Part shown: piece after piece, positions 47,447-60,869 of the stretch | How the letters are laid out: each line of letters opens with the position of its first letter | Position numbering within the stretch: the first letter of the stretch is position 1 | The notes under the pieces: model-generated | What the model was told of the DNA's origin: nothing | Database searches by the model: none | What the model saw: the letters and a program-made list of their open reading frames with translations, nothing else | Source: Luteitalea pratensis | GTDB taxonomy: Bacteria; Acidobacteriota; Vicinamibacteria; Vicinamibacterales; Vicinamibacteraceae | Assembly: GCF_001618865.1 (NCBI RefSeq) | Contig: NZ_CP015136.1 | Coordinates: forward strand, 2,887,001 to 2,951,000 | Direction: 5' to 3' | DNA: 64,000 bases | Position numbers and translations under genes: made by a program

Positions 47447-48331
47447 CTACGGTTCATGCAGCGCAGCATCGATGGTCCTCTGGCCGAGGGCCGCCATTGC
47501 GGGATCGTCACGAGAGTGCGTCAGGTACGCCAGTCCCAGCGCCAGCGCCCAGCCGCGGGCCCGCGTCTTCAATGCATCAGGCTCCTCGCCCGTCCACGCG
47601 TCGAAGCTCGATCGAATCGATCGCGGCAGCATCCAGAGAAGGGAGAGATCCGTCGCTGGATCACCGGAGGTGAGATCGCCGAAGTCGATCACGCCCGACA
47701 GGGAGCCGTCGCTCACCAGCAGGTTGCCCGGATGAAGATCCCCGTGGAGCCACAGTGGCGGTCCGGACCACGGCGGCGCCGAGAGCGCGCGGTCCCACAG
47801 GCTGAGCACTGCGGCTCGGTCCACGACGCCGTCAAGCTGTTGGAGATGCTGGTGCAATGCAGCGGTGCGCGCCTCGAGCGGCACACCTCGCCACGGATTA
47901 CGCGGGGCGTCCGCAGGTGCGGGCTGGTGGAGCGCGCGAGAGAAGCGCTCCAATGCGGCACCGGTTGCCACGGGGTCCGGCAAGGCGGCATGCAGGAGAC
48001 TCTCGCCAGGCAGCCATCGGACGACGGACCACGACCAGCCGAACATGGCGCCAGCAACCCCCACACGAACAGGTACGGGCACCGGCACGGGCAGTCGCAG
48101 GGACAACTGCGGCAGCCACCGTTGCTCGTATTCGATCAGCGGCGCGGACGCCGCGCGACGAGGCAAACGGACAGCCAGCTCGTCCCCCAGGCGGAACACG
48201 GCGTTGTCCCAGCCTTCGGAGACCTTGACTGGCACCAGATGGGCGAGGTCCGGATGTTGTTCCTGGAGCAGGGCGTGAACGAGTGAAGCGTCGACGATGA
48301 GGTCGGCCGCTGGCTTTGTCCCGATGGCCAT
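47447..48331 (-). CDS. aminoglycoside phosphotransferase-fold (APH) kinase
   Basis: A 294-residue protein. VSEGWDNAVFRLGDELAVRLPRR holds the nucleotide-binding lysine/arginine region, with VVRWLPGES at the hinge. LWLHGDLHPGNLLVSDGSLSGVIDFGDLTSGDPATDLSLLWM gives the catalytic HGDxxxxN and DFGD motifs. Family members phosphorylate aminoglycosides, macrolides or metabolic alcohols. The subgroup beginning with EGWDN...LRLP is often called streptomycin/macrolide-type, but the substrate is not assured. ATG 48331. Flanked on both sides by mobile-element remnants, so it may have been carried in. Confidence 0.88.
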   Translation of the reverse strand: MAIGTKPAADLIVDASLVHALLQEQHPDLAHLVPVKVSEGWDNAVFRLGDELAVRLPRRAASAPLIEYEQRWLPQLSLRLPVPVPVPVRVGVAGAMFGWSWSVVRWLPGESLLHAALPDPVATGAALERFSRALHQPAPADAPRNPWRGVPLEARTAALHQHLQQLDGVVDRAAVLSLWDRALSAPPWSGPPLWLHGDLHPGNLLVSDGSLSGVIDFGDLTSGDPATDLSLLWMLPRSIRSSFDAWTGEEPDALKTRARGWALALGLAYLTHSRDDPAMAALGQRTIDAALHEP

Positions 48332-48426
48332 GCTTGGCAGTGATCGTACAACTGTGGCGCGCTGCCGCCACGCCGCATGCGACGCGACGAGCGCGCGTCC
48401 ACGCTCCTGACGTCGAACCGTCCCGT

Positions 48427-48576
48427 CGACGACTGGGGAAGCTTCTCGGCCACACGGCTGCGGTGAGCGCGCTCCTCGATCGCCTGCGCCATCACGCCAA
48501 CGTCCTCAAGTGCGGCCTCCAGAGCTGGGGGACGAAGCTCCAGACCGATGTGCGACCAGAGGAAACAATGCGATAA
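48427..48576 (+). mobile_element. 3' remnant of an IS21-family istB helper ATPase
   Basis: The frame reads LGKLLGHTAAVSALLDRLRHHANVLKCGLQSW and ends RPEETMR at 48576. This matches the C-terminal end of IstB proteins (GKxLGDTxAVxALLDRLLHHxHVLKCGPRSW). The ATPase core is gone. It begins just after the divergent APH gene's promoter region. Confidence 0.65.
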
Positions 48577-49131: not shown

Positions 49132-50811
49132 ATGGCGAAGAAGCCACGCAAGCCGAAGCAACGGGAGGCCCCTGCCGACGGGGGCGCCGCGCCGGACCAG
49201 CCGCCGCCAGAGGACCAGAAGGAGCATCGAGAGGCGGTCATCGAGAAGGCCGAGAGCCGCGACCTCAATCAACGCAAGCGGCCGGAAGAGATGCGCATGG
49301 ACATGATGCGCTCGATCATCACCGAGCCGCTGCTCTCGCAGATTCAGCAGGCGCAGGAACGAAAGGAAACGGGCGCCACCTTCGATGTCATCATCGCGAT
49401 CAACGAGTTCTTCGAAGGCGGCGTGCCGAACGCCCTCCAGGAGATTCGGACTCGTGCCGAGAAGTGGGGCGTCACGTACGCGACGGTCTCCAACTATTGC
49501 TTCGCCACCCTGACTGCCGATCAGGTCCTCAAGCTGGCCGACGAGGCGCGTGCACTGTTTGCCAAGTACGGACGCAGCGGTAGCGTCATCTATCGCATCT
49601 GGGAGGACACGGACATCGATGTCACGCTGACGAAATCGCTGGCGACGATCAAGGCCGATGCGGCACAGCGTTCGTTTCGGGCCTTCGGGAGAGAGATAGT
49701 CTGGGCCGTGCTTGATTCCGGCGTTCAGGGGGATCACCCGCACTTCGCGGCAAAGGCCACGCCCTTCGGCCCGATGAACACCCTCGCAACAGATGCGCCG
49801 CTTGCGCACACCGATTTCACACCGGACGGCAGCCGATCCGAGAACGCGGGCCAGAACATGGCGCTCGTGGACCGGTTCGGCCACGGCTCGCACGTGGCCG
49901 GCATCATCGCCGGGTACTGGCAATCACCGTCCGGAACCGAGGAGCCGGTCGTCGGCACCGAAATGCGCAACGAAGCTACGAACGAGCCGATCCGGCAGCG
50001 CGATGGGCTCTCGGCGATTTCTGGCGTGGCACCGCTGTGCAAGGTTCTGAGTCTGAAGGTAATCGCCGACGTGACCCTGCCCGGTGCAAGCAAGCAGACG
50101 GCGGGGCAGGGCAAGGTCAGCTGGGTGCTCAAGGCGATCGAGCAGATCCAGGAGTGGAACCAGCACGGCAAACGGCTCCTGATCCAGGGCGCGAACCTGA
50201 GTCTCGGCTACGAATTCGACCCGCGGTGGTTCGCCTGCGGGCAGAGCCCGGTCTGCGTCGAGGTCAACCGCCTGGTCAAGAGCGGTGTGTCGGTCGTGGT
50301 CTCCGCGGGCAACAGCGGCTACTCGACGTTCGTGCTCGCGAATGGTCGCAGCGAAGCGCGGTTCAACGATCTGTCGGTCACCGATCCAGGCAACGCGGAA
50401 CTCGCCGTGACCGTCGGATCGACCCATCGCGACATGCCGCATACGTATGGCGTGTCGTACTTCTCTTCACGCGGTCCAACCGGCGACGGCCGTACGAAAC
50501 CTGATCTGCTCGCCCCCGGCGAACGCATCATCTCCTGCGCGGCGGGGCTCGAGGCCGCGAAGTACGGAACGGCACCGAACGGTCAGGGAGAGCCAATCCC
50601 GGCGCTGTACTGCGAGCAGACCGGCACCAGCATGGCGGCACCGCACGTCTCGGGCGCGATTGCGGCATTCCTGTCGGTGCGCCACGAGTTCGTGGGACAG
50701 CCCGAACGGGTGAAGGAGATCTTCATGGCCAACTGCGTCGATCTGAAGCGAGAGCGGAGCTTCCAGGGGGCGGGCCTCCTCGATCTGATGAAAGCACTTC
50801 AGGCGGTGTGA
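49132..50811 (+). CDS. subtilisin-family (S8) serine protease without signal peptide
   Basis: A 559-residue protein. It has a long charged N-terminus (MAKKPRKPKQREAPADGG...) and no signal peptide, unlike most S8 enzymes. Residues 60-180 are a helical/mixed domain with RSIITEPLLSQIQQAQERKETGATFDVIIAINEFF, possibly an inhibitory prodomain. The catalytic residues are all present: D195 in AVLDSGVQGDHPHF, H251 in GHGSHVAGIIAG, Asn in SAGNSG, S500 in GTSMAAPHVSGAIAAF. It is probably cytosolic or self-activating inside the cell. AGAGGA lies ten bases before ATG 49132. The alpha/beta hydrolase gene follows 39 bp later on the same strand. Confidence 0.88.
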   Translation: MAKKPRKPKQREAPADGGAAPDQPPPEDQKEHREAVIEKAESRDLNQRKRPEEMRMDMMRSIITEPLLSQIQQAQERKETGATFDVIIAINEFFEGGVPNALQEIRTRAEKWGVTYATVSNYCFATLTADQVLKLADEARALFAKYGRSGSVIYRIWEDTDIDVTLTKSLATIKADAAQRSFRAFGREIVWAVLDSGVQGDHPHFAAKATPFGPMNTLATDAPLAHTDFTPDGSRSENAGQNMALVDRFGHGSHVAGIIAGYWQSPSGTEEPVVGTEMRNEATNEPIRQRDGLSAISGVAPLCKVLSLKVIADVTLPGASKQTAGQGKVSWVLKAIEQIQEWNQHGKRLLIQGANLSLGYEFDPRWFACGQSPVCVEVNRLVKSGVSVVVSAGNSGYSTFVLANGRSEARFNDLSVTDPGNAELAVTVGSTHRDMPHTYGVSYFSSRGPTGDGRTKPDLLAPGERIISCAAGLEAAKYGTAPNGQGEPIPALYCEQTGTSMAAPHVSGAIAAFLSVRHEFVGQPERVKEIFMANCVDLKRERSFQGAGLLDLMKALQAV

Positions 50812-50850
50812 GGTAGATCGGTTCGGTGGCCAACAGCAGGAGAGAAACAG

Positions 50851-52206
50851 ATGGAGACACTGCAGGAATTCGACTTCGTCGCGCTCAACTTCGATCGAGA
50901 CGGGACGCTGACCAATCCCGCCAGCTGGACCGAATTCAAGGCCGCGGCCGCGCGACCTGGCGGGCCGACCGATGCGATCTTCATCGCGCACGGCTTTCGG
51001 AACGACGAGACGGAGGCGCGCGGCCTCTACAGCGAATTCCTCCGGACGTTCCGCAGGAACATGGCGCAAGCGAGCGTCGCCGGTGCGCTCGCGCCACGGC
51101 GCTTTCTCGTCGCCGGCATCTTCTGGCCGTCCAAGGCATTCCGCGAGTCGTTCGGCGACGGCGGCGTACAGTCGGCCGACAACGACGCCGTGCAACTCGA
51201 GTTCGCCCGCGAGCAACTGGCGGAGCTTCGGGACCTGGCCAGGACGCCCGAGCAGGAGCGCCAGATCGCGGAAGCGATGCGGCTCCTGCCCTCACTCGAG
51301 GGGAACGAGGGTGCGCAGGACGAGTTCGCCGCCCTCGTGCTTTCGATCGCGGAGCAGGAAGGAGCGGTGCTGGATCCTTCAGACGGCTTCGACCGGATCC
51401 AGAACACGCCGGGCTCGACGCTGCTGGCCAAGCTTCAGGCGCCAGTGATTCTCCCGACTCGACGGCGAGATCCGGACGAAGGCGGAGTGCTCGCGATCGA
51501 TGACGGTTCGAGCTTTGGCGGTGAGGGAGAGGGCCAGGGCCTCCGTGCAGTGTTCGGCTCGATATTCGGCCGCGTCGGCCAGTTGCTCAACCTGACGTCG
51601 TGGTACGTGATGAAGACGCGCTCGGGCACGGTCGGCGAGACCGGGGTGGCGACCTGTGTACGGCAACTGCGGGGCGAGCGACCCGGACTCCGCGTACATC
51701 TGGTCGGCCACAGTCTCGGGGGACGCCTGATGGCCGCGTGCGCGAAGGCATTGGCGCAGCCACCCGTCGTCCACGTCCATTCACTGACCTTGCTGCAAGC
51801 CGCGTTCTCGCACTTCGGCCTGAGCGCGGACAACCGAGAAGGCACACGCGGGTTCTTCCGCGACGTCATCGAGCAGGAGGTCGTCGAAGGACCGATGGTC
51901 GCCACCTTCTCGTTCGAGGATGCGGTCGTCGGCAAGGCGTATGCAATCGCGTCCAGATTGGCCGGCGACAACGTGCAGGCCGTTGGCGATCGGCACGATC
52001 CGTTCGGCGGGATTGGCCGCAATGGCGCGCAGAATCTGACCGAGTCGACCGAAGGACCATTGCAGGCTGTCGGGAGTGCCTACGCGTTCTCCCCGCGCGT
52101 GGTCCACTGTCTCGACGGCTCTGGCGGGCTCATCACCAGCCACGGTGACGTCGAGAACGAAAATGTGACATGGGCGTTCGCGTCCGCGGTCGCGTCGACG
52201 CCGTAG
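50851..52206 (+). CDS. alpha/beta hydrolase fold protein, cytosolic
   Basis: A 451-residue protein. The start METLQEFDFVALNFDRDGTLTNP is followed by DAIFIAHGFRNDETEARGLYSEFLR (oxyanion-type HGF) and RRFLVAGIFWPSK. A long inserted helical region (residues 110-230) follows. The nucleophile elbow is VHLVGHSLGGRLMAACAK near residue 290. The catalytic His is probably in the C-terminal GLITSHGDVENENVTWAF. No signal peptide. It probably forms an operon with the preceding protease. Large cytosolic hydrolases of this layout act on unknown esters or lipids. It converges with the GH19 gene. Confidence 0.85.
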   Translation: METLQEFDFVALNFDRDGTLTNPASWTEFKAAAARPGGPTDAIFIAHGFRNDETEARGLYSEFLRTFRRNMAQASVAGALAPRRFLVAGIFWPSKAFRESFGDGGVQSADNDAVQLEFAREQLAELRDLARTPEQERQIAEAMRLLPSLEGNEGAQDEFAALVLSIAEQEGAVLDPSDGFDRIQNTPGSTLLAKLQAPVILPTRRRDPDEGGVLAIDDGSSFGGEGEGQGLRAVFGSIFGRVGQLLNLTSWYVMKTRSGTVGETGVATCVRQLRGERPGLRVHLVGHSLGGRLMAACAKALAQPPVVHVHSLTLLQAAFSHFGLSADNREGTRGFFRDVIEQEVVEGPMVATFSFEDAVVGKAYAIASRLAGDNVQAVGDRHDPFGGIGRNGAQNLTESTEGPLQAVGSAYAFSPRVVHCLDGSGGLITSHGDVENENVTWAFASAVASTP

Positions 52207-52338
52207 CAGCACGCCGAGGTACTGACGCTCGACGGGGCTGGGCACTGGGCCGCGCCGGCCTCGACGGGTGCCGACACCGACCCAGTCGAGACGGCACGGC
52301 AGGAGACGGCCGGGCTGAAATCGTGTCGAGCCTGCGAC

Positions 52339-52983
52339 TCAGCCCACGGACCTGATGCCAAGATCGAGCATCGTGAGGAGACCATTCGCCTTGTTGAGCA
52401 ACTCACGGCGATGGGCCAGGCCGTTGGCACCCCCGTTGATCTTCTTCGTCAATCCGACGACGTCGTCCCGGTCTGCGAGCCTGTTCAGGTTGTTCTTGTC
52501 CCAGAAGAACACGGCGGAGTGCACGGCGTACTCGCTGGACACGAGATCCGGTTCACTGTCGATCCGCTGGTCGTCTACCCAGTTGGCGAACGCCTGATAA
52601 TTGCTTCGGCCCGTCAACTGGATGAGGCCCCGGCCCCGATACTTCCAGCCATCGCCGCTGGACTCGGCACGGTTGCCCATGCGGTTTGCATACACCCTGT
52701 TTGCGATCTTCTCAGGCTGGCGCGCGTACGCGTCGGCTTCTGCCCGCGTCGGAAAATACTTACCGAAGACCTTCATCAGGCCGTCGGCCGAGTAGTTCAG
52801 GTTCTCCATGTCGAACCGCATGCAGCCGGACTCGTGCAGGACCTGTGCGAAGAAGTGTGCGAGCCGCAGCCGGGAGTCCGCAATGCCGAACCGCGGCAAC
52901 GTCTCCTCGAGGTGGTGTACGTACTGCTGGGCGTCCGATTCAGAGACTCCCATTTCCATCAACATTTCGATGCGCGTGCTCAT
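52339..52983 (-). CDS. GH19-family chitinase/lysozyme-like glycoside hydrolase
   Basis: A 214-residue protein. The GH19 fold is given by LRLAHFFAQVLHESGCMRFDMENLNYSADGLMKVFGKYFP, IANRVYANRMGN, DGWKYRGRGLIQLTGRSNYQAF and KKINGGANGLAHRRELLNKA. The catalytic glutamates are expected in HESG and in the downstream ENLNYSA region. No signal peptide, so it is phage-endolysin-like or delivered by some other system. It lies 72 bp after the unknown gene on the same strand. Confidence 0.9.
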   Translation of the reverse strand: MSTRIEMLMEMGVSESDAQQYVHHLEETLPRFGIADSRLRLAHFFAQVLHESGCMRFDMENLNYSADGLMKVFGKYFPTRAEADAYARQPEKIANRVYANRMGNRAESSGDGWKYRGRGLIQLTGRSNYQAFANWVDDQRIDSEPDLVSSEYAVHSAVFFWDKNNLNRLADRDDVVGLTKKINGGANGLAHRRELLNKANGLLTMLDLGIRSVG

Positions 52984-53055
52984 GCGGTCTCCGTTGAGAA
53001 GAGGCCACCAGACGGGTCAGCCAGGGTGCCGCTGGTGGGCGAATCAGTCGTGATG

Positions 53056-53952
53056 TCACGCTCGTGGCAGCAGCCGATATCCCGGGTCGAGGTGCTGATG
53101 TGCCATGAGGAGCTGATGGATGTCGAAGGGATGTGTCTGCGTGTCGTGTAGCTCGTTGCGCACGACCTGGAACACGTGACCGAGGCCTGCGGCATCGTCA
53201 ATGTCGATGTCCGCGCGCCAGTCGCTGCCACTGGTGAAGAAGGTGACCTGAAGGTTTCCGAAGGCGTCGCCGGTCTTGAAGCTGCCGGCCGCCACAAACC
53301 CTGGCGGCGGTTTGTGAAGCGCGCCGTTGACCTCGTGAAAGTGATCAGCCTGCACCAGGCTGGGCATCTGCACCCGCAGCGCTTGCGGCACCGAGACGAA
53401 GCACCGGTCACGCCGGGCCTCCAGCAGCGTCACGTGCGGGAGCAGGTCCGCCCCATCGGTGAACTGCGTTGCCAGCGACTTCTTTGCGATGTTCAGGAGA
53501 CCGGCCCTGGCTTCGTCGCTCAGCGCCTCGTAGAGCGCCCGCCCGGTCACCCCCTCGTGGCCGGCGACCGTGTGGCTGCGATCGAGGATGCCCTGGACTC
53601 TGGCATCGACGTCATCGAAGTCAGGGAAGACGGCTCGCGCGCGGTCCGGCCGGATTGGAAGCGCGACCGTCTCCTGCCTGGCACCACTCGGAGGGATGCT
53701 CACGAACCGCCTGATGGACCGGTACGAGGGTGCCCTCACCTCCAGCACGTACAGTCCTTGCGGTTCACGCCGGAGGTCGTTGATGGCGATCACCCGGGTG
53801 GCGTCCACCCCCGACGCTGTCCGCTGATCGTCCAGCACGTGATGACGCAGCCCGACATCGACCCGTTCGGTGAGCGAGTGCCCGTCCACATCGACCAACT
53901 TCAGTTCCAGCCGTCCCGTGTGGTCCACTCGTGGTCTCCTCGCGTTGGTCAC
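53056..53952 (-). CDS. conserved hypothetical protein, partner of the GH19 gene
   Basis: A 298-residue cytosolic protein. The first 80 residues are Ig-like (GRLELKLVDVDGHSLTERVDVGLRHHVL, QGLYVLEVRAPSYRSIRRFVSIPP). A middle helical part is VTGRALYEALSDEARAGLLNIAKKSL. The C-terminal domain has GSFKTGDAFGNLQVTFFTSGSDWRADIDIDDAAGLGHVFQVVRNE and ends HPFDIHQLLMAHQHLDPGYRLLP. I cannot name a family with a known role. It probably shares an operon with the GH19 gene. The acidic WRADIDIDDA strand may bind a metal. Confidence 0.65.
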   Translation of the reverse strand: MTNARRPRVDHTGRLELKLVDVDGHSLTERVDVGLRHHVLDDQRTASGVDATRVIAINDLRREPQGLYVLEVRAPSYRSIRRFVSIPPSGARQETVALPIRPDRARAVFPDFDDVDARVQGILDRSHTVAGHEGVTGRALYEALSDEARAGLLNIAKKSLATQFTDGADLLPHVTLLEARRDRCFVSVPQALRVQMPSLVQADHFHEVNGALHKPPPGFVAAGSFKTGDAFGNLQVTFFTSGSDWRADIDIDDAAGLGHVFQVVRNELHDTQTHPFDIHQLLMAHQHLDPGYRLLPRA

Positions 53953-54374
53953 CTGCGCACTCGCGGCGTCGGCCCGGACACGTCAAGGCGTAGCGCTCAA
54001 TGTAGAACGTTCGGGAGGGCGCACCCGGACACGTTCCAACGCCGCCACAGCTGTACGTTTTCATGAAGTGTGGCGTTTCACATCTCGGTCGATCTGGTGT
54101 GTGCCAGGTCGGAAACAGGCGGGCGCATGCGGAACGCAGGTGGACATTCGCGACCGACACCGTTGCGGGTGATATCGGCCGCCGCGCCCAGGGACTGGAT
54201 ATCGACGTACGTAAACGACTGGGACGCTGGCCATCGCCGCCTGCCAAATGTAGCGCGGCGCTACGACGAGGTCGCTGGCCTTGCGCCGGGCGATGCCCGC
54301 AGCACGCGCCGGGACGCGGCTCCGCGGCCGATGGTTGTGACAGGCACCTCATCAGCGCGTGACAGGAGACTCAC
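53953..54374. other. intergenic stretch between divergent genes
   Basis: No protein-like frame. It holds the promoters of the unknown/GH19 pair and of the truncated subtilase. No obvious operator. Confidence 0.4.
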
Positions 54375-54770
54375 ATGGCAACCAAAAAGTACATTGTCCT
54401 GCACGCCAACCGCGGACTCGGCACAGGCGAGCCGTTCAGCGGCGGCGTCGCATCCATCGGCGCGAGCGCGACGACGGCAGCGCCGGTGGCGCAGGTCGAG
54501 GTGACCGACCTCACCGAGGAAAACGTGCGCGATCTCGCTCGCGACCCGGAGGTGGCGGCGATCACGCTACCGATGCCGCTGACGATCATCGCGCCCCACG
54601 TCGCGGGCGTTGCTGCGCTCTAGCGCGAGTCGCTCACCACGGGTGGACTTCCGGTGACCAGCCTGAACGTCATGGCCAGCGTCCTCGCCACGACGACGCG
54701 CACCGGCTTCGCCCCAGGTGTGTCTGCGGCGTTGCGCGGTAATGGGCTCGTACAGGCGCCTCAGGCCTAG
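54375..54770 (+). pseudogene. subtilase remnant: propeptide fused to the extreme C-terminus, catalytic core deleted, TAG inside
   Basis: From ATG 54375 the frame gives KYIVLHANRGLGTGEPFSGG...VEVTDLTEENVRDLARDPEVAAITLPMPLTII, an inhibitor-I9-like subtilase propeptide. It goes straight into APHVAGVAAL, the sequence that follows the catalytic Ser in GTSMxxPHVAGVAALW. A TAG at 54621-54623 stands where the Trp (TGG) is expected. Beyond it, in the same frame, RESLTTGGLPVTSLNVMASVLATTTRTGFAPG...GNGLVQAPQA gives the usual tail, ending at 54770. The Asp, His, Asn and Ser of the active site are all missing. The 132-codon frame is otherwise undamaged. Confidence 0.8.
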
Positions 54771-54865
54771 GTGCGAGCAGGCGGCATCGGCGTCAGAAGG
54801 ATCCGCCGGCCGGCGGGCAGCCCAGGCTCCTGCACACGCTGTCGATTCGACTCTCAGGAGGGCAT

Positions 54866-56173
54866 ATGCCAACGTGCTTCGTCGTGATGGGGTTCGGTCT
54901 CAAGACCGACTATGCGCAGCAGAAGACATTCGATCTCGACAAGTCGTACCGCAACCTGATCAAGCCGGCGGTCGAGGCCGCCGGCTTCACGTGCATCAGG
55001 GCGGACGAGATCCAGCACGCCGGCAACATCAACATCCCGATGTACGAACAGCTACTCAATGCGGATCTCGTCATCGCGGATCTGTCCACGGCCAACCTGA
55101 ACGCCTTCTTCGAGCTCGGGATTCGCTATGCCCTGAAGCCCAGGACGACAATCGTCATCGCCGAGAGCGGCTTCATCATTCCATTCGACATGGGACAGGT
55201 CGTCATCCGCCGCTATCAGCACCTTGGGCCTGGCCTCGATTACGACGAGGTCATCGTCAAGAAGCAGGAACTGACACAGGCGTGCACGGAAGTCGTCGCC
55301 GCGAGCCGCGATGACAGCCCGGTTTACACGTTCCTGACGAATCTGGCGCCGCCGATGTTGAGAGGGGTCGCGGCGGCCCAGGCACAGGTTGCCAACCAGC
55401 AGACTCGCGTCGCGCTGGGCCAAGCGGAGACGAGCGACCAGGCGGCGGCGCTGACGTTGCCGCTCGCCGCGCTGATGGCGAAGGCGATGGAGGCGCGGGC
55501 CGGCAAGAGGTTCGGCGAGACGTGCGCCATCCTCGCTGGCGTCAAGGCCGTCCAGGGTGCCGCGGTTGACCCGTTCGTGATCCAGCAACTGGCGCTGGCG
55601 ACCTACAAGCAGAATGAGAAGGACCCGGCCACGCTGATGGCCGCCCGGGCCGTCCTGAGCGACCTGTCGCCCGACACCTCGATCGATCCCGAAACCCTTG
55701 GTCTGTGGGGGGCTGTGCACAAACGCCTGTTCGACGCCGGCGGGTCGACGGAAATGAGCCCGGAGGCGGCGCTGGACGTGGCGATCGAGGCCTACGGACG
55801 AGGATTCGTCCTCAAACATGACTATTACAACGGCATCAACTTCGCTTTCCTGCTGGATACGCGAGCTGCCGCGAGCAGCGGGAACGAGGCGATTGCCGAC
55901 CATGTGCACGCGCGACGGGTGCGGACGAAGGTGCTCTCGGTCTGTGACGAGGCGCTCGCACGAGAAGTGAAGGCCGAGAGTGCGCAGGGTCGGGCGGAAG
56001 CCGAGTACTGGCTGCGCGCCACCCGGGCCGAGGCCCGCCTCGGTCTTCGAGAGATCGCCAGCGTCGACGAGGCTCTGAGCGACGCTGCCAACATGACCCC
56101 GGCGCCGGAGTCATGGATGATCGACACGACCGCCAGTCAGCTGCGAAAACTCGCACGCCTGTTGGGCATGTGA
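54866..56173 (+). CDS. TIR/deoxyribosyltransferase-like N-terminus with TRAFs-binding (TPR-S-like) C-terminal domain
   Basis: A 435-residue cytosolic protein. Residues 1-130: CFVVMGFGLKTDYAQQKTFDLDKSYRNLIKPAVEAAGFTCIRADEIQHAGNINIPMYEQLLNADLVIADLSTANLNAFFELGIRYAL. This is the nucleoside-2-deoxyribosyltransferase/TIR-like fold, with candidate catalytic acid in the ADLSTANxNAFFELG motif. Residues 190-435 are helical repeats with DPETLGLWGAVHKRLFD and DYYNGINFAFLLDTRAA, the signature of the TRAFs-binding/TPR-S domain. Such proteins are placed in bacterial conflict (NAD/nucleotide-targeting) systems. AGGAGG lies six bases before ATG 54866. It follows the dead subtilase by 95 bp. Confidence 0.8.
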   Translation: MPTCFVVMGFGLKTDYAQQKTFDLDKSYRNLIKPAVEAAGFTCIRADEIQHAGNINIPMYEQLLNADLVIADLSTANLNAFFELGIRYALKPRTTIVIAESGFIIPFDMGQVVIRRYQHLGPGLDYDEVIVKKQELTQACTEVVAASRDDSPVYTFLTNLAPPMLRGVAAAQAQVANQQTRVALGQAETSDQAAALTLPLAALMAKAMEARAGKRFGETCAILAGVKAVQGAAVDPFVIQQLALATYKQNEKDPATLMAARAVLSDLSPDTSIDPETLGLWGAVHKRLFDAGGSTEMSPEAALDVAIEAYGRGFVLKHDYYNGINFAFLLDTRAAASSGNEAIADHVHARRVRTKVLSVCDEALAREVKAESAQGRAEAEYWLRATRAEARLGLREIASVDEALSDAANMTPAPESWMIDTTASQLRKLARLLGM

Positions 56174-56626
56174 GCGGGCGCGCGAGTTGCCGTCAGGGCG
56201 TATGGCGACAACGCTGATGGGCTCTCCGGCAGGCCGTCTCGCAGGCGCGATAGAAGAGTGCAGAATGTCGGTGGACGTAGCTGCGATGGACACGCTGGAG
56301 CTCACGAGTGGCGACACGGCTCCGAGCGACACGGCAATCAATCCGCCATCGCCACCGCATTCGATCGCACGAACAACGTCGAGCAGGTCGTCTGGAGCCA
56401 ACCGCCGGCGGGCCATTCTGGTGCGGGCGTTCCGAGCGGGACAGTGCCCACAGTCGTACGCTCTCGTGGCTCGCGTCCGTTGAACGCGCCTACACCCCTG
56501 GGCCGTTCTCGTGACCCGGGCTGCGACAGGTAACTGGAGGCTTGCTTGCCGATGACGAATGAAAGTGTCTCAAGTGCTTCGGGATCAATCCCGGTGGACG
56601 TGCACTCGCCGGCGTCGCAGCGGGTG
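56174..56626. other. intergenic, mostly debris
   Basis: Apart from the subtilase tail at 56360-56483, nothing protein-like. The region separates the conflict-like block from the convergent nor operon. No clear terminator hairpin was found. Confidence 0.35.
56360..56483 (+). pseudogene. broken C-terminal tail of a subtilase
   Basis: One frame reads NNVEQVVWSQPPAGHS. After a frame change at about 56415 another reads ILVRAFRAGQCPQSYALVARVR and stops at 56483. NNVEQV...PPAG...V.VRAFRVP.GPQSYALV is the usual end of secreted subtilases with a pre-peptidase-like tail. No start and no catalytic part. It is a second subtilase scrap near the one at 54.4 kb. Confidence 0.5.
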
Positions 56627-58630
56627 TCATCGCACCAACTGTCGCAGCACATCGACCACGACCATTGGAAGTGCATCGGCGTGGCGCAAGATCGCGAACC
56701 CACTGCGGCCGAAAACACGAGCCGCATAGCGGGGCGCCTCGCGATCAACCGTCACGCAGAACACGGCGATGCCCTGAAGGCGCGCCTCGGCGACCGCCTG
56801 GCGGGTGTCCTCCACCCCGTAAGAACCCTCGTAGACATCGACATCGTTTGGCTTGCCGTCGGAAAGGATCAGCAAGAGTCGACGTGCTGCCGACTCACGG
56901 GCGAGCGCGGCCGTCGTGTGCCGAATGGCCGCGCCCATGCGGGTGTACCGATCGGAGTCGAGCGCTGCAATCCGACGGTCGACGACGAGGGTCCGGCGCT
57001 CGTCGAACGACTTCAGCGACAGCACGGCCACGTCATCCGGCCCCTCGCCTGAGAACGCGAAGATGCCATAGCGGTCGCCCAAGGCATCAAGCGCTTCGCA
57101 CACGACCAGAAGCGCGTCCTTCTCGACGTCGACGATGCGCCGGGTGTCCGAGACCCAGCCGTCGGTGGACGCGCTGACGTCGGCCAGCAGCGCCACGGCC
57201 AGTTGGCGACGCGACCGGCGATGCTCGATGTAGAGACGACCATCGGTGGCAACCCCGGCGCGCTGGTCGGCGCAGGCGCTCACCCATCCGGCGATGTCGG
57301 GCTCCGAACCGTCCGTCTGCCGATCCAGCCTGACGTAGCAGGGTCGCAGGCGCTCGAACCGGGCGCGCACGCGGCGTGCGAGCCTGGCATGACGCGCCTT
57401 GGCCGCGCCGATCCACGCGACATCTCCCAGCGGCGGCGCCGGCTCGCGCACGATCGCACCCCGGGATCGGTATGCGCGCAGCCGGTGATCCCACTCCGGG
57501 TACACCAGGCCCCACCGTGCCGGCGCGATCGGTGTCGACCCTGGAACGCGCTCGACCGGGTCTCCGGAGCGAAGCGCCTCCCTGACCGGCCCCGGCGTGC
57601 ACACCACGCGGGCCTCGGGCAGATCCGACAGCGAATCGGCCAGTGCTTCAGGGTCGGCGTCGTCATCGCGATCGACTGGCCGCTGCATGCCGAATGGATC
57701 TTCGACACTCTCCTGCGGCTCGTCGGCACGGATGACCCAGGTCCCCGCGTTGTCATCGTCCTCGCCCTCAGCGGCGGCACGCACCTCCGGGCGCCGGCGC
57801 ATCTCGGTCACACGAAGCCTCGGGATCGTGGGTACAGACTCTCCCGCTGCGGGAGGTGTGGCCGGCTCCAGCAAGCGGTGCGCCGCGATGATGTTCCCCC
57901 AGTACCACGGCAGCAACACCTCGCGATACCGGCGGCGATCGCCGCGCCCGGTCTGCGCACGTGCCCAGGCGAGGGACTGCTCGGGCGAACCATCGGCATC
58001 TACAGTGAAGGGTGGCGTCAGCGGGTCCGCAGCCAGAAACGCCTGGATCTGGTCCTCAACCGCGAAACTGAATGGCGACGGGCGGCGACCGATACCGCTG
58101 GCGAGCGCGAACGCACGCGCCGCACTCAGACCGGGTACGAGCCCACGGACCTCGCGCGCAATCCAGCGATCAACAGTCGCCGCTTCCGCGAGCAGAAACC
58201 AGTCGCGCGTCTCGCCGCTGGCGATGTCCTCCGACACCACCGCCGTCCCTCGCACCATGCGCACCGCCTGTTGCACGGCCATCAGTCGGTAGATCGCGAG
58301 AGCGTCCAGGCCGCACGTTTCCGGCGGCACCGCCGCCGGCAGATAGACCCGGCGTCCGTCGGTGGCCGAGTGCAGCAAGCCGTCGGGGCGGCTGCGCGAG
58401 GGGTGGCGGGCCAGGCGGGCGAGCCAGCTCACCGGTGCGGGCGGCTGCATTGGCGCAATCGCGATGGACCTCCCGAGCAAGGCCGTGAGGAAGATCTCCA
58501 GCCGAGTGCGTACGGCACAGAGCGCGGTCGCTCGATCTTCAGGTGTCGCTCCGTAGCGCCGCCACGCTTCACGCGCGACCCGCGTTGCGAAGTGCGCGCC
58601 CTCGAGGATCAGCTCTTCGGGTTCGGCCAT
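56627..58630 (-). CDS. norD: nitric oxide reductase activation protein NorD (VWA domain)
   Basis: A 667-residue cytosolic protein. N-terminal helical region with AIYRLMAVQQAVRMVRGTAVV. The C-terminal von Willebrand A domain has MIDAS residues in LLADVSASTDGWV (DxSxS), continuing with YGIFAFSGEGPDDVAVLSLK, DSDRYTRMGAAIRHTTAAL and LLLILSDGKPNDVDVYEG. NorD works with the AAA+ ATPase NorQ to insert or activate the non-haem iron of NorB. It is the last gene of the operon; its start lies 26 bp after the norQ stop. Length and motif order fit the family. Confidence 0.93.
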   Translation of the reverse strand: MAEPEELILEGAHFATRVAREAWRRYGATPEDRATALCAVRTRLEIFLTALLGRSIAIAPMQPPAPVSWLARLARHPSRSRPDGLLHSATDGRRVYLPAAVPPETCGLDALAIYRLMAVQQAVRMVRGTAVVSEDIASGETRDWFLLAEAATVDRWIAREVRGLVPGLSAARAFALASGIGRRPSPFSFAVEDQIQAFLAADPLTPPFTVDADGSPEQSLAWARAQTGRGDRRRYREVLLPWYWGNIIAAHRLLEPATPPAAGESVPTIPRLRVTEMRRRPEVRAAAEGEDDDNAGTWVIRADEPQESVEDPFGMQRPVDRDDDADPEALADSLSDLPEARVVCTPGPVREALRSGDPVERVPGSTPIAPARWGLVYPEWDHRLRAYRSRGAIVREPAPPLGDVAWIGAAKARHARLARRVRARFERLRPCYVRLDRQTDGSEPDIAGWVSACADQRAGVATDGRLYIEHRRSRRQLAVALLADVSASTDGWVSDTRRIVDVEKDALLVVCEALDALGDRYGIFAFSGEGPDDVAVLSLKSFDERRTLVVDRRIAALDSDRYTRMGAAIRHTTAALARESAARRLLLILSDGKPNDVDVYEGSYGVEDTRQAVAEARLQGIAVFCVTVDREAPRYAARVFGRSGFAILRHADALPMVVVDVLRQLVR

Positions 58631-58656
58631 GTCGGACTCGGCTCCCAGCGTTCCCG

Positions 58657-59508
58657 CTACGGCATCGTCGAGGTCACGAGATCGTGCATGGCTGCGAGCA
58701 GCTCGGGATCGTCGGTGAGGGGGCCGAGAAGCGCCGCATGGCAGGCCGCTCGCACCGGAATGTTCCCGGCGACGAGGCGCGCGGCAGCAACAATCAGGCG
58801 TGTGCTCGGTACCTCGGCCAGACCTCGGTCGCCGAGCTGGCGGAGACGATTCGTGAGTGTGACCAGCGCGATCGCCCGATCGCGTTCGATCCCGCTCTCG
58901 TGTTCCACGATCTCCGCCTCGAGCTCCGGGCTCGGAAAAGCGAACTCGAGGGCGACGAAGCGCTGGCGCGTGCTCGGCTTGAGGTCCTTGAGGCCGTGCT
59001 GGTAGCCGGGGTTGTAGGAGATCACGAGCTGGAAGCCGGGCGCTGCGTCCAGAATCTCGCCAGTCTTGTCCAGCGGCAGGACGCGCCGGTCGTCGGTCAA
59101 CGGATGGATGACCACGACGGTATCCTGCCGGGCTTCGATGATCTCGTCGAGGTAACAGAGGGCGCCATGCCTGGCCGCCCGCGTGAGTGGGCCGTCGAGC
59201 CAGACCGTATCGCTGCCGCGAATGAGATAGCGGCCGGTCAGGTCACTCGCGGACAGGTCGTCGTGGCAGGCTACCGTGACGAGCGGCCTGCCCAGACGCC
59301 ACGCCATGTGCTCGACGAAGCGCGTCTTGCCGCATCCCGTGGGCCCCTTGAGCATCACCGGCAGTCCGCGCGCGTGGCACGTCTCGAAGACGGCGATCTC
59401 GTTGCCCGTGGCCAGATAGAACGGCGCGTCCGGCCCCGGGTAGCGGAGGCCGTCGTGGTGATCCGGGCCGATCGATGGCGCGGCGTCCGTCCGGCTGTAG
59501 TCGCTCAT
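58657..59508 (-). CDS. norQ: NorQ/CbbQ-family AAA+ ATPase
   Basis: A 283-residue MoxR-class AAA+ protein. Walker A is MLKGPTGCGKTRFVEHMA and Walker B GALCYLDEIIEAR. Sensor 1 is LVISYNPGYQHGLKDLKPSTRQRF, typical of CbbQ/NirQ/NorQ. Its ATG at 59508 overlaps the norB stop by four bases (ATGA), so translation is coupled. It remodels the NorB/NorC complex together with NorD. Confidence 0.94.
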   Translation of the reverse strand: MSDYSRTDAAPSIGPDHHDGLRYPGPDAPFYLATGNEIAVFETCHARGLPVMLKGPTGCGKTRFVEHMAWRLGRPLVTVACHDDLSASDLTGRYLIRGSDTVWLDGPLTRAARHGALCYLDEIIEARQDTVVVIHPLTDDRRVLPLDKTGEILDAAPGFQLVISYNPGYQHGLKDLKPSTRQRFVALEFAFPSPELEAEIVEHESGIERDRAIALVTLTNRLRQLGDRGLAEVPSTRLIVAAARLVAGNIPVRAACHAALLGPLTDDPELLAAMHDLVTSTMP

Positions 59509-60869
59509 GCCGGCATTCGGGCCGCGGCGGCCGCCGGCTCGACGTGCGTGCGCTGGCGAGGCGCCAGGAAGAAGAAGTCCCAGAGAAACAGCGCCACGCC
59601 GGCGGTGAACAGCGTCCCGGTGGCCACGAGCATCAGGAAATGCACCTGGATCTTCGCCTGCGTCTCGAGGTAACCCATCCCGAGGACGCGCTCGAGGTAC
59701 ACCTGGCCGATCCCGGCGGCCGCGAAGGCCATCGTCATCCCGAACATGCCGCCGACCTGCAGCCAGAACGCCCACAGCCCGGTCCTGGTCTCACGCTGCG
59801 ATTCGTCGTGGCCCATCAGCGCGGGCGTCGCGTAGGTGATCACCGCGAGGACGATCATCACGTACGCGCCGAAGAACGCGGAGTGGCCGTGCATGGGCGT
59901 GATCAAGGTGCCGTGTGTCCAGCGGTTGACCGATGGCCAGGTGTGGGCGAGGCCGAGCAGGCCCGCGCCCAGTGCGGAGAAGATGGCGCTGCCCAGCGTC
60001 CAGTGCAAGGCGAGCGTGTTCGGGTGGGAGAGCCCCGACCGTCGGATGGCCTGGTAGGCGTACGCCGACATCGCCACGAAGACCAGCGGCTCGAGCGCCG
60101 AGAAGAAGCCGCCGAGCGGCAACCAGTAGGACGGCACGCCGACGAAGTAGTAGTGGTGCGCCGTGCCGAGCAGGCCCGAGATGAACGTCAGCCCGACGAT
60201 GACGTACAGCCACTTCTCCATCACCTCGCGGTCGATGCCCGACAGGCGGATCAGCAGGTAGGCGAGGAGCGCGCCCTGGATCATCTCCCACACGCCCTCG
60301 ACCCACAGGTGCACCGTCCACCAGCGGTAGAAAATCGCGACCGTGTAGTTGTCGAACTCGAGCAACGAGGGCAGGTACAGGATGGCCGTGAAGGCAAGGC
60401 CGGCCATCAGAACACCTTCAGTGGTCGTCAGGCGCTTCGCCTTCCAGATCGTCATGCCCAGGTTGTAGAGAAACATCAGCATGACCACCACGATGGCCAG
60501 TTTCACGGGCAGCGGTTGTTCGAGCAGCTTGTTTCCGGCGGTCCAGCCGAAGAGGTAACCGACGACGGCGGTCACCCCCGCCAGCGTCCACAAGCCGAGG
60601 GCGGCGTAGGCCATGGTCGGGCTGTGCAGCTCGGTGCGGGACTCCTCGGGCACCAGCCAGTAGGCGGCGCCCATGAAGCCGGTGAGGACCCACACGATCA
60701 GCAGGTTGGTGTGGATTGCCTTGGACACATCGAACGGCAGCAGATGAATCAGCGGGTCGGGCCCGAGGTACTTCGCCACCGATAGCAGCCCGAACACCAT
60801 CTGGAGGCCGTACAACAGCAGCGCCACGACGAAGTAGGGGTAAGCGACGGCCTGCGTGCGGAAGCGCAT
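59505..60869 (-). CDS. norB: nitric oxide reductase large subunit (cytochrome b), NorB
   Basis: A 454-residue haem-copper oxidase-superfamily protein with about 12 transmembrane helices. The haem and FeB ligands are visible: H53 in AIHTNLLIVW, H187 and Glu-191 in WWTVHLWVEGVWE, H238/H239 in GTAHHYYFVG, and H327/H329 in PMHGHSAFFGAY. The Glu in HLWVEG, in place of the oxidase Tyr, is diagnostic of cNOR. It reduces 2 NO to N2O using electrons from NorC in the cytoplasmic membrane. The start lies 13 bp after the norC stop. Length is normal. Confidence 0.96.
   Translation of the reverse strand: MRFRTQAVAYPYFVVALLLYGLQMVFGLLSVAKYLGPDPLIHLLPFDVSKAIHTNLLIVWVLTGFMGAAYWLVPEESRTELHSPTMAYAALGLWTLAGVTAVVGYLFGWTAGNKLLEQPLPVKLAIVVVMLMFLYNLGMTIWKAKRLTTTEGVLMAGLAFTAILYLPSLLEFDNYTVAIFYRWWTVHLWVEGVWEMIQGALLAYLLIRLSGIDREVMEKWLYVIVGLTFISGLLGTAHHYYFVGVPSYWLPLGGFFSALEPLVFVAMSAYAYQAIRRSGLSHPNTLALHWTLGSAIFSALGAGLLGLAHTWPSVNRWTHGTLITPMHGHSAFFGAYVMIVLAVITYATPALMGHDESQRETRTGLWAFWLQVGGMFGMTMAFAAAGIGQVYLERVLGMGYLETQAKIQVHFLMLVATGTLFTAGVALFLWDFFFLAPRQRTHVEPAAAAARMPA

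Follow-up and report, generated by a model that had tools for sequence, protein, structure and literature searches.

Genes and features of the locus

The window analysed here is a 64,000-nucleotide stretch of the Luteitalea pratensis genome (contig NZ_CP015136.1), for part of which a sequence-only reading had proposed a defence-like island of cytosolic enzymes. The features of this region are listed in Table 1.

Table 1. Features in and around the proposed island (coordinates within the window)
Feature	Position	Strand	Remarks
IS21-type istB remnant (read by eye)	48316-48576	+	Mobile debris upstream of the pair
S8 subtilisin-type peptidase	49132-50811	+	559 aa; first gene of the S8-hydrolase module
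Alpha/beta hydrolase	50851-52206	+	451 aa; starts 39 bp past the S8 stop
GH19 phage-type endolysin-like enzyme	52339-52983	-	PF00182, phrog_181; convergent to the pair
298-aa protein, unnamed family	53056-53952	-	Homologues L029-L038
Candidate core-deleted subtilase remnant	54375-54623	+	82-aa ORF; APHVAGVAAL end, in-frame TAG
TPR-S (DUF4071-type) protein	54866-56173	+	435 aa; TIR/deoxyribosyltransferase-like N-terminus
vWA gene	56627-58630	opposite to pair	Downstream
AAA gene	58657-59775	opposite to pair	Carries CbbQ_C

The assignment of the first gene to the S8 proteases was borne out by matches to PF00082 (Pfam, E 2.5e-35) and to the PADLOC 'subtilase' model (E 1.5e-48). The catalytic residues D195, H251 and S500 are all intact in the window protein, and in an alignment of 75 rows they are conserved in 72/72, 72/72 and 75/75 sequences, respectively. 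The N-terminal region, in which Pfam finds no match, looks prodomain-like by eye. Signal peptides had been noted as missing, and a simple hydropathy scan identified neither a signal peptide nor a transmembrane segment in six proteins, the S8 protease included. Among the S8 homologues one hydrophobic stretch was seen in 1/77, the others being free of transmembrane or signal sequences, as are the homologues of the hydrolase.

The second protein possesses a nucleophile elbow (GHSLGG) and a large helical insert, and S288, D357 and H431, which are invariant in 79/79 sequences, are read as its putative catalytic triad. Comparison with sequence families returned DUF726, Abhydrolase_6 and Lipase_3, all weakly and under cut-off, and none of 60 sequences of this family matched a PADLOC model at E 0.001. 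The proposed alpha/beta hydrolase identity was confirmed by an AlphaFold2 model (pLDDT 88.9, pTM 0.91) that aligns to lipase/esterase folds with a Z of about 13; a Foldseek search with this model found nothing in the PDB at E <=0.001 (best 8.8e-3), and the fold match points to no particular substrate.

Conservation of the protease-hydrolase pair

A scan with the hydrolase profile, using one genome per species, yielded 441 confirmed stretches, of which the best 80, i.e. the top scorers against the window hydrolase, were analysed as loci. An S8 protease of the window clade directly adjoins the hydrolase in 76 of these 80, a figure that holds for the close family and not for all relatives of the hydrolase, since the loci are the best scorers; of the remaining four, two are truncated by the end of their contig and the other two are genuine singles. 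The two genes are adjacent on the same strand in the window, and the gap between them across the loci has a median of 19 bp, being 50 bp or less in 66 of the 73 measured. Additionally, single-ORF fusions occur at two of the 80 loci, in the order hydrolase-S8 in L095 and S8-hydrolase in L137, the model of the latter being poor (pTM 0.51) and uninformative on docking. The loci come from 12 phyla, and the distances among the S8 proteins correlate with those among the hydrolases (r 0.756 over 70 pairs, with no value above 0.142 in 2000 permutations), including when distant pairs only are considered (0.509). Adjacency, breadth across phyla, fusion in both orders and correlated divergence thus support the conclusion that the cytosolic S8 protease and the hydrolase belong together. 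The pair is unnamed in the literature searched, which left out most subscription papers.

Both partners may be exchanged. In 24 plasmid records carrying this S8 protease, the next gene encodes the alpha/beta hydrolase in 18, an MBL-fold hydrolase in five and neither in one. Conversely, nine plasmid contexts of the hydrolase include the S8 protease in three and annotated CHAT or C25 proteases, next to it or one gene further on, in five, these latter arrangements being found on plasmids of Bradyrhizobium, Sinorhizobium, Nostoc, Gemmobacter and Planktothrix. A conserved third gene was not detected, the largest cluster of flanking genes covering 6/53 loci, five of which are from Nitrosospira or Nitrosovibrio. 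Phage carriage of the pair was also considered and set aside: the hydrolase profile confirmed no relative in viral_contigs, and the best 80 of 163 matches to the S8 protease in that collection are 22-30% identical and represent generic subtilases.

Proposed role and comparison with known systems

Several of the genes that flank the pair point to conflict biology, namely those for gasdermin, SIR2 and SLATT proteins in some loci. A gasdermin gene lies directly upstream of the S8 gene in two unrelated loci, at 1 bp in Pedobacter (L121) and at 44 bp in Novosphingobium (L130), and in both the protease that follows belongs to the same clade as that of the window. Gasdermins are rare in these groups (3/345 and 1/337 genomes from the phylum or class of L121 and L130, both centres counted); with the L121 protein as query, none was found near the pair in the other 78 of the 80 loci. 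The Pfam families of the 133 nearest flanking ORFs are led by SIR2_2, with four members as against at most one among 125 control ORFs. PADLOC families as a whole are not enriched, with 28 in the 133 flanking ORFs versus 77 in the 125 control ORFs, the controls being taxonomically narrow and happening to take in CRISPR genes. As a side observation, bGSDM, nacht and subtilase bear nearby accession numbers among the PADLOC models, and may, as a guess, derive from one system definition.

The closest parallel is the pairing of a caspase-superfamily peptidase with an alpha/beta-hydrolase, which is described, with a proposed joint operation, for VMAP (MoxR-vWA) and DO-GTPase conflict systems by Kaur et al. 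2020 (PMC7159879). Relative to that account, the window likewise pairs a protease gene with an alpha/beta-hydrolase gene, and relatives of its hydrolase sit with CHAT/C25 proteases, a likeness at the level of gene arrangement. Unlike the caspase pair, however, the window protease is an S8 subtilase, and the S8-hydrolase pair lacks a recurrent third gene while showing fusions and gasdermin neighbours. A vWA-MoxR ternary system built from the downstream genes of the window appears disfavoured, as the AAA gene carries CbbQ_C; together with the vWA gene it is read, by sequence, as probably NorD/NorQ-type, and the gene that follows matches ccoN weakly (25 bits, cut-off 583).

In bacterial gasdermin systems a protease reportedly adjoins the gasdermin pore-former. 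The Pedobacter and Novosphingobium loci share this arrangement (PADLOC bGSDM), whereas the window genome has no match to the bGSDM family and the constant partner of the S8 protease is the alpha/beta hydrolase. A fungal precedent for a subtilisin-like protease paired with a cell-damage effector may be seen in HET-Q1, a gasdermin that HET-Q2, a subtilisin-like protease, probably cuts to trigger cell death (PMC12881547), although this is an allorecognition pair for which the sections consulted of that source mention no alpha/beta hydrolase partner. The anti-phage system IetAS also includes a protein, IetS, that is by family name an S8 peptidase; yet the window S8 protease scores 25.3 bits against the IetS model NF042956, far below its cut-off of 900, and is accompanied by the hydrolase and istB debris rather than by an AAA ATPase.

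Its recurrence across bacteria, sometimes in fused form or beside a gasdermin, gives the pair the look of a protease-triggered switch for cell damage that has drawn little notice. The best reading of these sequence comparisons is that it represents a conflict or cell-death module, a putative subtilase variant of the caspase-alpha/beta-hydrolase pairing (Kaur et al. 2020). More specifically, we assign a probability of roughly 60% to its being an autonomous intracellular two-gene module in which the S8 protease, on cue, licenses a partner effector that harms its own cell. The subtilase would be kept inactive, probably through its N-terminal prodomain-like region, until a cue of invasion or damage switches it on; the active protease would then cleave and thereby license its partner, be it the lipase/esterase-like hydrolase, the gasdermin where present or the MBL hydrolase, and the freed effector would turn on the membrane of its own cell, or on a central metabolite, such that the infected or damaged cell is stopped.

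Phages lyse their hosts with a holin-endolysin pair, in which the endolysin reaches the wall via the damaged membrane. Peptidoglycan hydrolase or binding domains occur near the S8-hydrolase pair in L070, L121, L130 and L140 (a lead from few loci), among them GH108 in Hymenobacter (L070) and GH25 in Pedobacter (L121). A bolder and tentative version of the model, which we consider possible rather than probable, would have the pair as an unrecognised widespread cell-death module, parallel to and sometimes joined with gasdermins, in which the S8 protease licenses an intracellular phospholipase-like hydrolase and, at some loci, a cytosolic peptidoglycan hydrolase (GH19 in the window, GH108 or GH25 elsewhere) may then gain access to the wall across the damaged membrane, much as in phage lysis.

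Alternatively, the pair might be a housekeeping or nutritional unit of intracellular turnover, in which both enzymes act on one bulk substrate such as a storage polymer, lipids or proteins. The lipase/esterase fold, the lack of PADLOC enrichment and the many metabolic genes among the neighbours are in keeping with this, but the distribution of the pair is not: the S8-linked form is patchy (2/247 genomes sampled from the phylum, counting that of the window), the seven Acidobacteriota rows require seven changes on the hydrolase tree, and the pair is frequent on rhizobial and rhodococcal plasmids. Given these features and the gasdermin, SIR2 and SLATT neighbours, a turnover function appears unlikely. 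It appears still less likely that the S8 protease is a toxic effector and the hydrolase a partner that inhibits it, gives immunity to it or matures it, in a toxin-antitoxin-like arrangement: tight linkage and correlated divergence would be compatible with such a relationship, but the retention of the hydrolase Ser, Asp and His in every sequence is unexpected for an inert inhibitor, and each partner also pairs with unrelated enzymes.

Caspases and gasdermins are protease-activated effectors that link bacterial and eukaryotic cell death. If the protease-triggered switch is indeed what the pair encodes, a free-standing subtilase-hydrolase unit with exchangeable partners would offer a simple two-gene test bed for proteolytic effector release, and the Pedobacter and Novosphingobium loci, with gasdermin, S8 and hydrolase genes in succession, allow a direct test of the link to gasdermin activation.

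Surrounding genes of the block

The remaining genes of the block are real, but the unit was drawn too wide in the sequence-only reading. The mobile-element debris that it had noted upstream was verified, as positions 48376-48562 are 78% identical over 187 bp to a region of the same genome (G000:C1:3361298-3361485) with an istB-like ORF of 253 aa, the frame of the window copy being damaged. The supposed pair of GH19 lysozymes comprises a single GH19 enzyme, which scores 26.6 bits against PF00182 (cut-off 25.5) and matches phrog_181, an endolysin family of PHROG, at E 1.3e-74. Its neighbour, the 298-aa protein, has no match in Pfam, NCBIfam, PADLOC or PHROG and belongs to a family found in 11/247 genomes sampled from the phylum, the window genome among them. 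Neither subtilase relic could be substantiated: a second subtilase tail was not found, and the ORF thought to have lost its core is not matched by the S8 profile and, when searched against the genome it comes from, hits only itself and one sequence at E 0.06; a core-deleted remnant is weakly suggested, as a possibility, by a short motif and a prodomain-like look. Sought as a marker of an empty site in relatives, the vWA gene that flanks the block was unmatched in all 8 of those searched.

The proposed co-occurrence of four enzymes holds for the S8 protease and the hydrolase but not for the other genes, as homologues of the TPR-S, GH19 and 298-aa proteins were found in 0/80 S8-hydrolase loci (about 6 kb on each side where the contig allows), and joint action of protease, hydrolase and TIR-like protein is therefore unsupported. 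Similarly, homologues of the hydrolase, the GH19 enzyme and the 298-aa protein were all absent from ten TPR-S loci (eight from relatives' genomes and two from plasmids, some matching one of the two domains only), and an S8 protease was present in one (L065), about 14 kb off. Conservation of the whole block was thus found in neither set, and the pair appears to be a stand-alone unit within a chance cluster of neighbours of separate origin. That the entire 49.1-56.2 kb block was acquired as one multi-gene conflict system, with protease, hydrolase, lysozyme and TPR-S/TIR-like protein working together, is the least probable reading of all, for although the genes are physically close, istB debris lies upstream, peptidoglycan-directed domains recur at the four loci named above and a Rhizobium plasmid has adjoining SLATT, DUF3380 lysozyme, patatin and TPR-S genes with an S8 gene about 14 kb off, it is opposed by the 0/80 count and by the setting of the closest TPR-S homologue.

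The TIR-like/TPR-S designation itself was upheld by PF20308 (80 bits, cut-off 27.6, E 2.2e-22) and, at the N-terminus, by the PADLOC model 'Effector, TIR' (E 5.4e-9), placing the protein among the TPR-S/DUF4071 proteins, albeit without an evident partner in the window. No relatives were confirmed in viral_contigs. The closest homologue, full-length and 62% identical, stands in a relative's genome (G011) in a row with TIR-SIR2, nSTAND1 and HEAT proteins, with no S8, alpha/beta hydrolase or GH19 gene in the 18 kb read. Since the family elsewhere sits among TIR-SIR2, nSTAND, SLATT and DUF4062 genes, the window TPR-S protein is plausibly a separate conflict component.

Linkage of the S8 peptidase and the alpha/beta hydrolase

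The subtilisin-type (S8) peptidase and the alpha/beta hydrolase (ABH) that open the 49.1-56.2 kb block constitute one unit. A profile of ABH was used to scan one genome per species, and among the best 80 loci of at least 441 confirmed stretches, an S8 of the same clade was present in 76. The scripted adjacency rule identified 75 of these; the 76th (L133, gap -4) failed it only because the ABH frame is open through S8. Of the four loci without S8, L113 and L119 are cut by the end of the contig, whereas Pseudonocardia L105 and Streptomyces L146 are true singles. The S8-ABH gap had a median of 19 bp and was 50 bp or less in 66 of 73 cases, while single-ORF fusions occurred in both orders (ABH-S8 in L095, S8-ABH in L137). 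Additionally, S8 and ABH distances were correlated (r 0.756, 70 pairs; highest of 2000 permuted values 0.142), and the correlation was 0.509 when restricted to distant pairs.

The sequence-only reading had placed protease, hydrolase and TIR-like protein in a candidate conflict island and suggested that they act together; the S8-ABH association was borne out in these loci, while TPR-S did not co-occur with ABH, GH19 or the 298-aa protein in any of the 10 TPR-S loci examined.

Features of the block and of compared loci (L-numbers, loci read out of other records)
Feature	Record	Position (strand)	Remark
S8 peptidase	window	49132-50811 (+)	first gene of block
ABH	window	50851-52206 (+)	39 bp 3' of S8, same strand
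GH19 phage-type endolysin	window	52339-52983 (-)	strand opposite to S8-ABH
298-aa protein	window	53056-53952 (-)	strand opposite to S8-ABH; no Pfam, PHROG, PADLOC or NCBIfam match
Short ORF	window		in block; ends in subtilase-like motif, then stop
TPR-S protein	window	54866-56173 (+)	N-terminus TIR/deoxyribosyltransferase-like
vWA, AAA/CbbQ and weakly ccoN-matching genes	window	56627-60869	3' of block
Gasdermin-S8-ABH	L121	3685-7269	Pedobacter aquatilis
ParA-like NTPase fused to GH25 lysozyme domain	L121	8887-11544	3' of gasdermin-S8-ABH (Pfam)
Gasdermin-S8-ABH, then SIR2-domain protein	L130	3534-11496	Novosphingobium MAG
S8, then MBL-fold hydrolase, no ABH	L067	5326-8466	plasmid
S8, then MBL-fold hydrolase, no ABH	L068	5506-8329	plasmid
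S8, then MBL-fold hydrolase, no ABH	L069	4666-7965	plasmid
S8, then MBL-fold hydrolase, no ABH	L177	2873-6093	plasmid
S8, then MBL-fold hydrolase, no ABH	L178	3233-6416	plasmid
TIR-SIR2 protein, nSTAND1 NTPase, HEAT/TM protein, TPR-S	L039	4220-12598	one row, genome G011

Counting alignment rows with a letter at the position, S8 residues D195 and H251 (72/72 each) and S500 (75/75) were invariant, as were S288, D357 and H431 of ABH (79/79). The predicted ABH structure (pLDDT 88.9, pTM 0.91) aligned over about 165-230 residues (Z 13.7 to 12.3) to alpha/beta hydrolases including Legionella effector RavL, yeast Lpx1, a B. subtilis lipase, esterases and the T6SS protein Tle3, with no clear leader among them; in the Foldseek search no hit reached E 0.001.

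Distribution and alternative partners

By record title, the 80 loci span 12 phyla (13 if two "Cyanobacteriota" loci, which are Rhodococcus records with a clashing name, are left uncorrected). Within the phylum, ABH matched four times among 247 genomes (own included): in G145 an S8 47% identical to that of the window lies directly 5' of ABH; G276 and G107 showed no such S8 next to ABH, and G276 carries CHAT-like genes 3' of ABH (by eye). As the ABH tree requires seven changes for seven Acidobacteriota rows, the module is patchy in its distribution and has probably been transferred.

ABH was detected in 29 plasmid records and S8 in 24. In the latter, S8 was next to ABH in 18 (by position; NC_008269 via locus L057), next to an MBL-fold hydrolase in five and next to neither in one. 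Some of the five MBL-fold loci have patatin, FRG, SIR2, TIR or cyclase genes nearby. Of nine ABH plasmid contexts read, three contained S8, five had an annotated CHAT or C25 protease adjoining ABH or one gene away, and one, an unannotated record, looked CHAT-like by eye.

Gasdermin neighbours and known protease-effector systems

A gasdermin adjoins S8-ABH in two of the 80 loci, L121 (1 bp 5' of S8) and L130 (44 bp 5' of S8), and the two gasdermins are 42% identical over 219 residues. Since gasdermin is rare in the respective phylum (Pedobacter, 3/345 genomes) and class (Novosphingobium, 1/337; centres included in both), two chance adjacencies are very unlikely, the expectation being ~0.0002 for independent events in genomes of 4000 genes at a frequency of 3 in 682. 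Other neighbours identified by Pfam were SIR2_2 proteins (L079, L130, L139), GH108 (L070) and a below-cut-off TIR_2 match (L121) 3' of ABH, DUF4231/SLATT 5' of S8 (L145), and, nearby, a LysM/VgrG3-like protein (L130) and PG_binding_1 (L140). SIR2_2 was the top family among the 133 nearest flank ORFs (four, versus at most one in 125 control ORFs). By contrast, PADLOC matches overall were not enriched near S8-ABH (28 families versus 77 in these controls, which are taxonomically narrow and include CRISPR genes).

In excerpts of Kaur et al. 2020 (PMC7159879), an alpha/beta hydrolase is invariably encoded next to the caspase-superfamily domains of VMAP systems, with joint action proposed, and subtilisin is mentioned once, for a different system; a review (PMC12881547) describes the fungal gasdermin HET-Q1 as likely cut by subtilisin-like HET-Q2. 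By analogy, the S8-ABH pair may work like these systems. However, its protease is no caspase and the Luteitalea genome has no gasdermin match; the pair was therefore not classed as a member of either.

Remainder of the block and its surroundings

The window covers C1:2887001-2951000 of a 7.48 Mb genome. Hydropathy revealed neither signal peptides nor TM segments in the six block proteins; for four of them the absence of signal peptides had been noted from sequence. Also as noted from sequence, mobile-element debris, the frame-damaged end of an istB-like gene, lies 5' of the block. The vWA, CbbQ-type AAA and ccoN-like genes 3' of the block were read as NorD/NorQ (nitric-oxide-reductase) type; a search of eight relatives found no counterpart of the vWA gene. 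Genome-wide, TIR_2 has 14 matches (12 above the family cut-off), one of them ~6.4 kb ahead of the window start.

Among 60 relatives, counting the Luteitalea genome itself, 9 carry TPR-S relatives, as do 74 plasmid records. The G011 homologue is 62% identical to that of the window, and its row (L039) is a possible NLR-like conflict operon; on one Rhizobium plasmid, SLATT, DUF3380 lysozyme, patatin and TPR-S genes are grouped. The 298-aa family was found in 11 of 247 phylum genomes and in no plasmid record, and GH19, TPR-S and S8 neighbours were absent from the six loci examined. GMC oxidoreductase- or metallophosphatase-like genes lie near some of its relatives (L047-L052; by eye).
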